DNA from: Bacteroidales bacterium
Lineage (GTDB): Bacteria > Bacteroidota > Bacteroidia > Bacteroidales > UBA6680
Assembly (NCBI GenBank): GCA_025210735.1
Contig: JAOARD010000001.1
Coordinates: forward strand, 62,001 to 126,000
DNA length: 64,000 nucleotides
Direction of reading: 5' to 3'
Shown: piece by piece, positions 7,042 to 64,000 of the stretch
How the letters are laid out: the number at the start of each line of letters is the position of its first letter
Position numbering within the stretch: the stretch's first letter is position 1
Position numbers and translations under genes: made by a program
Notes under the pieces: model-generated
What the model was told of the DNA's origin: nothing
Seen by the model: only the letters and a program-made list of their open reading frames with translations
Databases searched by the model: none

Positions 7042-8196
7042 GGTGTGATTAGGTTTTTGGTTGTTGTGTTTATGTTTGCATGTTTGTAGGAAATAATGTT
7101 CTGTTCACGAGTTTGGTTGAACCTTTTTTAAGAGGTCTCGTATACCAACAGAAATACCATGGCAACACAGAACATTGTTAAGTTAATTGCATCAGTCAAC
7201 AAACTAGATTCAAGGAGTTATAATCAACTAAAGGATGCAATAGAGAAGCGTGATTCAGTCAAATTTGTATCACGTCTGTTAAATGAAAATAGCGGAGATA
7301 TCAGTTGTCCGTATTGTAAATCACAATCTATTCATAAATGGGGAATGCGCAGCGATATGCAACGCTATAGATGTAAAGAGTGCAGACGAACATTCAACAC
7401 TTTAACATCTACACCATTGGCATATTTACATAAGAAAGGCAGATGGCTTGATTATGCCAAATGTCTGAAGGATGGACTGAGTATAAGAAAAGCAGCAGCA
7501 AAGTGTGGTGTTCATAAGAATACATCATTCCGATGGCGACACAGATTCTTACAGAATGCAAATGAGATCAAACCAGAGAAGTTATCAGGTATAGTTGAGG
7601 TAAATGAACTGATATTTGCTTGGTCGGATAAAGGGTGTAAGAAACTAAGGAGAAAACCACGCAAAAGAGGATACAAATCACCAAAACATATTCCATCAAA
7701 GAGCAGGGTGTTTACACTGTTTTGCAGGGACAGAGGAAAGAATACATTTGATGATATTTTCTACAGATTTAGTGCAGATAATCTAAAACCAGATCTTTCG
7801 TCACTTCTTACTAAAGACACACTGTTTTGTAGTCAGAATAAGGCAGTTTATCTGAAATACACCAAGGAGAATAGTGTAAGACATGGTGTACTTAGTATAC
7901 CTAAACAGGAATCGGTAAAGAAGGATATTGTGCATATAAAGAATGTGGAAAAATATCAGTTTGATCTACAGGTTTGGATGGTCCGATTCAGAGGTGTGGC
8001 AACCAAATATCTGCATAATTACTTGTCGTGGTACCGTGAGATGGATGAATTTGACTTTAAAATCACTCCTGAGACAGTACTGATAAGGGCTATGAGACCA
8101 GAGAGATACAATACCAACCATTTTCGTTGACAGAACAGGAAATAGCCTACAAACCTTACACCTTTTACAAAAAAATTACATCCTCACAATTGAGCC
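7042..8196 (+). mobile_element. IS1595-like insertion element, copy 1
   Basis: The right end was located by comparing this copy with the one at the right window edge. Both share the non-coding sequence after the transposase stop as far as GGCTC(A/T)ATTGT(G/T)AGGATGTAA, and then diverge. The left end is inferred: reading inward from 7042, GGTGTGATTAGG reaches GTTTGTAGG after 49 bases, while the right end reaches the same GTTTGTAGG after 51, followed by shared TTCTGT. These are imperfect terminal inverted repeats. I found no 8-base target duplication, so the outer limits are approximate. Confidence 0.65.
7159..8130 (+). CDS. IS1595-like transposase with substituted catalytic residues
   Basis: A 323-residue protein with the IS1595/ISXO2 layout. 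It has an N-terminal zinc ribbon (CPYC near residue 51 and CKEC near 74), a helix-turn-helix (IRKAAAKCGVHKNTSFRWRH), then the DDE-like domain with the family's RKPRKRG and WMVRFRGVATKYLHNYLSW blocks. The family uses a D-D-N-K catalytic set. Here the first Asp (normally in VDETY) is Asn149 in VEVNEL, and the second (normally in CSDG or CTDG) is Gln226 in FCSQNK; Asn262 and Lys283 are kept. Ordinary strand transfer is therefore doubtful although the DNA-binding parts look intact. Only the last 72 or so codons of the second copy can be seen, so whether it shares the changes is unknown. Confidence 0.88.
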   Translation: MATQNIVKLIASVNKLDSRSYNQLKDAIEKRDSVKFVSRLLNENSGDISCPYCKSQSIHKWGMRSDMQRYRCKECRRTFNTLTSTPLAYLHKKGRWLDYAKCLKDGLSIRKAAAKCGVHKNTSFRWRHRFLQNANEIKPEKLSGIVEVNELIFAWSDKGCKKLRRKPRKRGYKSPKHIPSKSRVFTLFCRDRGKNTFDDIFYRFSADNLKPDLSSLLTKDTLFCSQNKAVYLKYTKENSVRHGVLSIPKQESVKKDIVHIKNVEKYQFDLQVWMVRFRGVATKYLHNYLSWYREMDEFDFKITPETVLIRAMRPERYNTNHFR

Positions 8197-9234
8197 TCCG
8201 CAACTATCAGTTATAGCTCCGGTAACAGATTTAATAGTATTAGTCTCTTTAATTACACGCAGATAGCCGAGTAGTGCGAATATAAGAGCTTCTTTAAAAT
8301 CTATTATTGTATCGTCAGGAATAACAATCTCTGATCTGGTATTTTTTTTAATACAATCTGTTAACTTCTTATTATATGCACCGCCACCAGTAATTAAAAC
8401 ATTACTGTTAGTGTCAGTAATACATTGACCAATCATATAACCTGTGTGCTCATAGATAGTTGTTAACATATTATTTATAGGGATATCGTATTTGTCTGTA
8501 ATATTTAAGAACTTAGATTCAAACCATTCTCTGCCAAGTGATTTTGGTGCAGATAAAGAGTAGTATGTGAGATTATTTAATTTGTTTAAGAGAGTATTAT
8601 TTACAGACCCTCCATTACTTAGTACATTTTCCTTATCATATTCATAATTATGTTTTCTGCAGAAGTAGTTTAAAGCAATATTTGCAGGACATATATCATA
8701 AGCTATGATACTATCATCATTTTTGACAGATATATTAGCAAAACCACCGAGGTTAATACAATATTTATATTCCGGAAACAGTAGTTTATCGCCAATTGGA
8801 ACAAGAGGTGCTCCATGTCCTTTTAATGCAACGTCTAGGCTTCTGAAGTCAAACACAGTTGTAATGCCAGACTCAGCAGCAATATTTGCACCATTCCCTA
8901 TCTGTAACGTAATACCTTTTTCTGGCTGATGAAAAACTGTATGACCATGTGAGGATATAATATCGGCTTTTATATTATGTTTTTTGATGAATTTTAAAGC
9001 CTCCTGACCAAGATAAACACCATACAGGTTATGTAGTTCCAAAAGATCAAAACCGCTTAAAAAATGAGCATTTTTTAAGCGGTTTTGCATTTGTATATCA
9101 TATTTGATTGTCTCGGCGTGTAATATTTGAGTATTACTAATATCCTGTTTGTCAATTTTACATATTGCAATATCTAAACCATCAAGTGAGGTACCGGACA
9201 TTAATCCTACAGATATGAAATCATTTTTAGTCAT
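8176..9234 (-). CDS. anmK: Anhydro-N-acetylmuramic acid kinase
   Basis: AnmK opens and phosphorylates 1,6-anhydro-MurNAc to MurNAc-6-phosphate during recycling of cell-wall fragments in the cytoplasm. The start is placed at the ATG giving MTKNDFISVGLMSGTSLDGLD, because the MSGTSLDG phosphate loop begins close to the N-terminus in this family; an upstream in-frame start would add 24 residues that do not fit. Other family blocks are SSHGHTVFHQP, LQIGNGANIA and GHGAPLVP near residues 90-160, and LITGGGAYN near residue 295. The start overlaps the stop of the upstream secreted-protein gene by 8 bases. The last seven codons and the stop lie inside the terminal repeat of the adjoining IS. Confidence 0.93.
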   Translation of the reverse strand: MTKNDFISVGLMSGTSLDGLDIAICKIDKQDISNTQILHAETIKYDIQMQNRLKNAHFLSGFDLLELHNLYGVYLGQEALKFIKKHNIKADIISSHGHTVFHQPEKGITLQIGNGANIAAESGITTVFDFRSLDVALKGHGAPLVPIGDKLLFPEYKYCINLGGFANISVKNDDSIIAYDICPANIALNYFCRKHNYEYDKENVLSNGGSVNNTLLNKLNNLTYYSLSAPKSLGREWFESKFLNITDKYDIPINNMLTTIYEHTGYMIGQCITDTNSNVLITGGGAYNKKLTDCIKKNTRSEIVIPDDTIIDFKEALIFALLGYLRVIKETNTIKSVTGAITDSCGGSIVRM

Positions 9235-63717: not shown

Positions 63718-64000
63718 GGCTCTATTGTTAGGATGTAATTTTTTGCAAAGGGTATCAGGTTTGTAGGCTATTTCCTGTTCTGTCAACGAAAATGGTTGGT
63801 ATTATATCTCTCTGGTCTCATAGCCCTTACCAACACTGTCTCAGGAGTGATTTCAAAATCAAATTCATCCATCTCACGGTACCATGACAGGTAATTGTGT
63901 AGGTATTTCGTTGCCACTCCTCTGAAACGTACCATCCAAACCTGTAGATCGAACTGATATTTTTCCACATTTTTTATGTGTACAATATCCTTCTTTACAG
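63718..64000 (-). mobile_element. IS1595-like insertion element, copy 2 (cut by window edge)
   Basis: The right end of the same element as at 7042-8196, in opposite orientation. It is delimited by the shared terminal sequence beginning GGCTC at 63718; sequence to the left no longer matches copy 1. The rest lies beyond the window. Confidence 0.75.
63783..64000 (-). CDS. IS1595-like transposase, C-terminal part
   Basis: The frame is open to the window edge. The visible residues, from SVKKDIVHIKNVEKY to YNTNHFR, equal those of copy 1 except for Lys-to-Glu and Ile-to-Val changes. The catalytic-set Asn (HIKNVE) and Lys (GVATKYL) are present; the two positions substituted in copy 1 are outside the window. 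DNA differences between the copies are nearly all silent. Confidence 0.88.
   Translation of the reverse strand, partial: VKKDIVHIKNVEKYQFDLQVWMVRFRGVATKYLHNYLSWYREMDEFDFEITPETVLVRAMRPERYNTNHFR

Follow-up and report, generated by a model that had tools for sequence, protein, structure and literature searches.

To our knowledge, few bacterial cases are known in which transposon enzymes have turned into regulators. InsA of IS1, a DNA-binding domain without a catalytic domain, is made by the active element, binds the element ends and regulates it. RAYT (TnpA-REP) proteins and their REPINs combine a transposase-derived bacterial gene with long-lasting dispersed paired repeats; RAYTs are Y1 (HUH) enzymes and the REP sequences are able to spread (PMC8266576, PMC3116915, PMC8049555). 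TldR is a transposon enzyme turned DNA-binding regulator, TnpB-derived and RNA-guided (PMC13418256). For IS1595, an N-terminal zinc ribbon is described in every group except IS1016 (PMC8101967). Literature searches did not turn up any description of an IS1595 family without catalytic activity.

The family described here is derived from a classical DDE-type transposase, set against the Y1 or TnpB-derived proteins of the two regulator cases compared (RAYT and TldR). It resembles RAYTs in its transposase-derived gene and dispersed paired repeats, but has a DDE-type fold, is catalytically dead, has ~26 gene copies and has immobile repeats. The likeness to TldR would lie in the change from transposon enzyme to DNA-binding regulator, in this case of a DDE transposase with helix-turn-helix and zinc ribbon at many fixed loci. 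From sequence comparison we consider it likely that IS1595 transposases gave rise here to a family of DNA-binding proteins that are catalytically dead and no longer move, and that selection keeps these proteins and their paired target sites. The comparisons show catalytic loss, immobility, purifying selection, paired-site conservation and concerted evolution.

The window, which is the whole stretch of 64,000 nucleotides that was analysed, contains one complete copy and the end of a second. Features are listed by window position, with residue numbers referring to the encoded protein.

7089–7096, no strand: left remnant of an 8-bp target-site duplication, GGAAATAA; 7/8 positions match 8138–8145
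7097–7122, forward: left terminal inverted repeat TGTTCTGTTCACGAGTTTGGTTGAAC; left boundary conserved in all copies, flanks outside differ
7159–8130, forward: gene for the D-less IS1595-like protein, 323 aa (ORF call, family profile, copy comparison)
7306–7383, forward: zinc ribbon, C50 C53 C72 C75, invariant in D-less and active relatives; NF050000 E=1.3e-13
7459–7554, forward: helix-turn-helix with the TSFRWRHRFL recognition region, 95–100% conserved; PF13384 E=1.2e-6
7579–8028, forward: RNase H-like (DDE_Tnp_IS1595) domain; PF12762 25.4 bits, just below the cut-off of 27, with AF2 model and Foldseek
7603–7605, forward: N149 codon AAT, first catalytic Asp position; D in 22/22 active types
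7834–7836, forward: Q226 codon, second catalytic Asp position; D in 23/23 active types, Q, H, L, K, S or I in D-less copies
7948–7950, forward: E264 codon, catalytic Asn position; N in 23/23 active types, L, E, Q, R, I or K in D-less copies
7969–7971, forward: Q271 codon, catalytic Lys position; K, R or H in active types, Q, L, I, E, K or F in D-less copies
8112–8137, reverse: right terminal inverted repeat, overlapping the C-terminal codons, reverse complement TGTTCTGTCAACGAAAATGGTTGGTA (boundary comparison of copies)
8138–8145, no strand: right remnant of the target-site duplication, GGAAATAG (comparison with the left remnant)
63779–64000, reverse: right end and C-terminal part of the second copy, cut by the window end (C60:125786–126601); 97% identical over residues 52–323

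The open reading frame at 7159–8130 was intact. Its product matched NCBIfam NF033547 (IS1595) with E=1.3e-34 and 119.9 bits against a cut-off of 75, which makes it an IS1595 transposase homologue on that profile. The AlphaFold2 model (pLDDT 88, pTM 0.83) matched RSV (retroviral) integrase, ISCth4, Mos1 and Sleeping Beauty in Foldseek. A Y1 (HUH) domain was not found, the model having an RNase H/DDE fold and the significant full-length family match being IS1595. The zinc ribbon expected of IS1595 is present, C50, C53, C72 and C75 being invariant in the family; this and the helix-turn-helix were intact, as had been claimed originally (NF050000 and PF13384 matches).

Catalytic positions were assigned in a reference alignment of the window protein with active-type relatives taken from genome contigs. 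Known IS1595 active types compared were L097 of Plebeiobacterium, copies of Methylovulum, Nitrosomonas, Massilia and Janthinobacterium, and L072 of G001. The D-less family shares with them the zinc ribbon, helix-turn-helix, RNase H-like fold, C-terminal helices and a single ORF between terminal repeats, with 33–51% identity and clear descent. Positions of the zinc ribbon, the helix-turn-helix and the C-terminal GVATKYLxNYLxW motif were mostly 95–100% conserved in the alignment. D149, D226 and N264 were found in 100% of active types and 0–5% of D-less sequences, in which 226 and 264 are variable. In the model, residue 149 lies in strand 145–154, residue 226 ends strand 222–226 and residue 264 lies in helix 261–277, a layout that, judged from secondary structure, is the RNase H/DDE topology. 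Alignment and predicted structure thus both placed 149 and 226 at the catalytic Asp sites, and the replacement of both Asp residues (N149, Q226), which had been proposed from the window alone, was confirmed against Asp in 22/22 and 23/23 active types. The accompanying claim that the Asn and Lys of the D-D-N-K set are intact was not borne out. The active-family signature is HIQ-NVN-xY...RLK, in which the second N (264) is the catalytic Asn and 271 is the Lys position; E264 and Q271 stand there in the window protein, and N262 and K283, which are kept structural positions, had probably been counted instead. In place of the D-D-N(E)-K set the window protein has N149, Q226, E264 and Q271, so that, by alignment, all four catalytic positions are lost.

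Copies were sought in the genome of origin (G000, 5.63 Mb, 76 contigs), in a sister species (G002, Bacteroidales UBA6680) and in a more distant genome of the same genus (G001). The own genome gave 39 matches to the window family, made up of 14 uninterrupted copies, 12 N-terminal halves, 12 C-terminal halves and one short ORF. The two sets of halves, located at contig ends, were read as 12 further copies split by assembly, giving ~26 full-length copies in total, of which nearly half were assembled solely as two contig-end halves with the middles unread. The complete D-D-N-K set was present in none of the readable copies or parts. Loss in the window protein is not chance, because every genome copy covering these positions lacks the set. 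No active IS1595 member was found in the own genome, all 31 NF033547 profile matches being D-less copies, and the same search found no active relative in the sister species, where copy L085 keeps D149 and K271 without D226 and N264. In G001, an active-type relative (CSD, NVN, RLK) with similar element ends is represented by four or more C-terminal ends that are near-identical. L171 of G001 was rejected as the active relative because it belongs to a different IS1595 group; the C-terminal 154 aa of L072 stand for that relative instead. Separately, SZUA-609 carries a single copy, L098 (3001–3951), with Gly at the first Asp (EAGET) and NVD instead of NVN; this copy may show the beginnings of the same catalytic loss.

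Comparison of copies gave common boundaries, with the left repeat before the ATG and the right repeat over the last codons. As expected of IS1595, almost every readable copy has both terminal inverted repeats in recognisable form. The terminus is GG in active types and mostly TG in D-less copies. The repeat type varies among copies, and left and right types agreed within a copy in 32/36, a co-variation that 0/20,000 permutations equalled; related copies were counted separately in this test and are not independent. In the ortholog pair L013/L085 both ends had changed alike between species. The window copy (7097–8137) keeps 7/8 bases of a target duplication and therefore probably arrived by ordinary transposition. 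Over 18 copies the 8-bp duplication averaged 3.3 of 8 matches versus 2.8 after shuffling (p=0.036). The active-type L097 of Plebeiobacterium, read from its flanks, has GGCTATGTC ends and a perfect 8-bp duplication.

Several features of the flanks were also seen. In most copies the 60 bp that border the repeats on the outside are, on both sides, G/T-rich reading inward, and a recurring motif, GGTAGYGGCTTTG / CCGCWACC, is a candidate beyond the repeat, seen but not established. About 60 bp of the right flank of the first copy (window 8138–8200) are common to the right flank of the second copy (L006, C60 about 125720–125778), and include the apparent last codons of an anhydromuramic acid kinase gene. 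Sharing of one flank was also seen in L002/L017, L007/L020, L036/L037 and L004/L029, as if copying had overrun the element end.

The elements were compared by their flanking genes between species. All 20 family matches of the sister species (20/20) lie at sites orthologous to copies in the own genome, and 13 of the 14 uninterrupted copies occupy the same sites in the sister species. At most further sites the sister contig stops inside the element repeat beside the orthologous gene; a few half-copy flanks were not placed in this comparison. For the window copy, both flanks are present in the sister species with element ends attached (L298 and L246), which we take from motifs to be the acyltransferase side and the anhydromuramic acid kinase side, respectively. 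Since copies are at the same sites in both species, they are no longer moving. L022 (51% identity, near-perfect repeats) is the only uninterrupted copy missing at its sister site, so there has been at least one gain or loss since the species split. No elements were found at the orthologous sites checked in G001, at one of which the flanking genes are 66 bp apart; with these sites empty and those of the two sister species filled, insertion probably took place in the ancestor of the latter. Mobility as expected of IS1595 was therefore not found, the sister matches being all orthologous with one differing site (L022). The window protein descends from IS1595 but departs from an IS1595 insertion sequence in two defining respects, its catalytic set and its mobility. 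The D-less family differs from the active types in several ways: nearly every copy is without any of the four catalytic residues, and none has the full set; recent movement is lacking, the GG terminus is mostly TG, target duplications appear decayed and ORF-free sites are selected.

A second lineage was found in the Marinifilaceae MAG McD1.32, which has about 15 mostly intact copies. Their identity to the query copy is 54–72%, and a mix of different residues occupies every catalytic position. In most of them both repeats survive in their inner part (about TGTCAYCNTTAATGGTTGGT) but not in the outermost bases, the inner right repeat being located inside the coding end. No close copies were found in 20 relatives of this MAG. 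D-less sequences of both lineages fell on one side of a 97/93 branch; this grouping could reflect long-branch attraction of fast-evolving dead lineages, and one or two origins are possible. Elsewhere in the tree are two divergent McD1.32 relatives, L283 and L284, with the first Asp kept and the second lost.

Selection was estimated from full-length ortholog pairs, 5/6 of which gave dN 0.105–0.158 with dS 1.45–2.16 or saturated; flanking genes gave dS 0.5–1.4. The sixth pair, L024/L088 (dS 0.15, 96% nucleotide identity), lies inside a recently exchanged block around 6100–7600 of L202/L235, where interspecies identity is 95–99% over element L024 and part of the left neighbour gene, with further flanks at ~80%. 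Its excess similarity relative to flank divergence is explained by interspecies locus exchange, the block of identity entering the left neighbour gene. Neutral change at 0.25 per site would produce ~9 stops, and in 300 trials the ORF never stayed intact. In both genomes, within-genome copies of the abundant subtypes are mostly 96–99% identical and orthologues 85–93%, values which indicate that these subtypes are homogenised in place by gene conversion. As gene conversion complicates dN/dS of abundant subtypes, the selection argument rests on the non-homogenised singletons L008/L071, L009/L083, L011/L077 and L013/L085, which are intact with dN/dS about 0.05–0.1. Fixed orthologous loci and purifying selection, as expected of a domesticated transposase, were thus both found.

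The repeat pattern, allowing up to one mismatch, gave 44 matches in the own genome and 29 in the sister species, and the reversed pattern 2 and 5. ORF-free repeat pairs are about 190–260 bp long overall. Besides the element ends, the own genome has such pairs, of about 200–260 bp, at four loci, one partly cut by a contig end, and a pair was present at the orthologous place in the sister species for 4/4. Three of the four are tandem doubles, seen about 375–396 bp apart at C37:18995–19594, C65:91577–92163 and C74:142–559. Between species the 22-nt repeats keep 16–22 of 22 positions and the 146–219-bp spacers are at or near the shuffled baseline; repeats kept while spacers were randomised are direct evidence of selection on the paired sites themselves. 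An RNA hairpin as the reason for the kept repeats was disfavoured, left and right repeats of the ORF-free pairs differing mid-repeat and each side being kept between species. A DNA-binding-domain-only paralogue, L203 in the own genome and L238 in the sister species (orthologous proteins of 128/133 aa, zinc ribbon and helix-turn-helix only), gave dN 0.11 and dS 1.33. Like IS1 InsA these are domain-only proteins, but they are encoded on the chromosome by a gene of their own (L203/L238), which both species have kept.

That the proteins bind DNA, that dimers bridge two repeats and that transcription or chromosome structure is in any way affected is inferred from these data. About 26 IS1595-derived elements would have inserted in the common ancestor of the two Bacteroidales species and afterwards lost all four catalytic residues and mobility, their proteins being kept by selection as putative sequence-specific DNA binders. 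Each unit is a gene between terminal repeats, and ORF-free repeat pairs and the one DNA-binding-domain-only paralogue exist besides. The zinc ribbon and helix-turn-helix are predicted to bind the ~22-nt repeats. A dimer held by the C-terminal helices and the RNase H-like fold that the proteins retain would bridge two repeats without cutting. Such bridging may occupy or loop DNA at the paired sites, mostly between convergent genes. The proteins may also regulate their own promoters, which is proposed because the ATG follows closely after the left repeat.

The original prediction that the protein binds DNA and should not catalyse ordinary transposition fits all of the evidence, with binding as a predicted property. 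Among its three options, a domesticated DNA-binding protein agrees best with the fixed orthologous sites, purifying selection, selected ORF-free pairs and domain-only paralogue. The second option was a transposition repressor. A dominant-negative or repressor (immunity) family, in which the dead proteins occupy the terminal repeats of active relatives and block IS1595 invasion, would fit the several near-identical active-type copies with similar ends in G001 and their absence from the other two genomes. One or two copies would be enough for this, and selection at many loci and ORF-free pairs at fixed places would be left unexplained; we regard it as unlikely. The third option was movement in trans by an active relative. 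Such a picture, of non-autonomous elements whose ORFs are bystanders, may hold for the common ancestor and possibly accounts for the original spread, given the kept terminal repeats, the 7/8 target duplication of the window copy and the short ORF-free versions. For recent time it is not supported, since no active source was found in either genome, sites are frozen across species (the same for 13/14 uninterrupted copies) and the ORFs are under purifying selection; already disfavoured by synteny, it is highly improbable.

Decaying remains of a dead IS family, conserved solely through gene conversion of intact versions, would account for the strong homogenisation within each genome (paralogues 96–99%, orthologues 85–93%, abundant subtypes). 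This is very unlikely, however, with non-homogenised singletons intact at dN/dS about 0.05–0.1 and spacers randomised between kept repeats, so that the repeats are selected. A protein that retains enzymatic activity, either through a non-canonical active site or in another reaction such as nicking that stimulates gene conversion between copies, would fit the invariant E147 and D198, the nearly invariant D191 and the strong homogenisation. These three residues are equally conserved in active types, though, and so look structural, and the second Asp has changed to Q, H, L, K, S or I with no obvious metal pair left; an enzyme therefore seems scarcely probable. On the preferred reading, DNA-binding proteins kept by selection, this would be a large multi-locus dead-transposase family: selection keeps the genes and their end sequences at their sites, and gene conversion homogenises them. 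How a mobile element becomes a DNA-binding system can be tested directly here, since the genus also contains an intact, active-type relative, and a ‘transposase’ annotation with high copy number need not mean mobility.

In the own genome, 10 of 15 copies lie between convergent genes compared with 20 of 193 background gaps (p=1.7e-6), and 0/15 lie between divergent genes. The convergent preference is absent from McD1.32 (2 convergent, 9 tandem, 6 divergent), and may reflect function or mere survival of harmless insertions. We tentatively raise, as a possibility well below even chance, that ~26 locus-fixed paralogues and ~30 paired sites at convergent borders, counting gene-bearing units and ORF-free pairs, would serve the whole chromosome as an architectural or insulating system, acting by non-cutting, transpososome-like bridging. 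Exaptation of this kind would then occur in two bacterial families or more. Two paralogous 1222-aa proteins (L193 7687–11352 and L222 555–4220) were each seen to adjoin a B-type copy.
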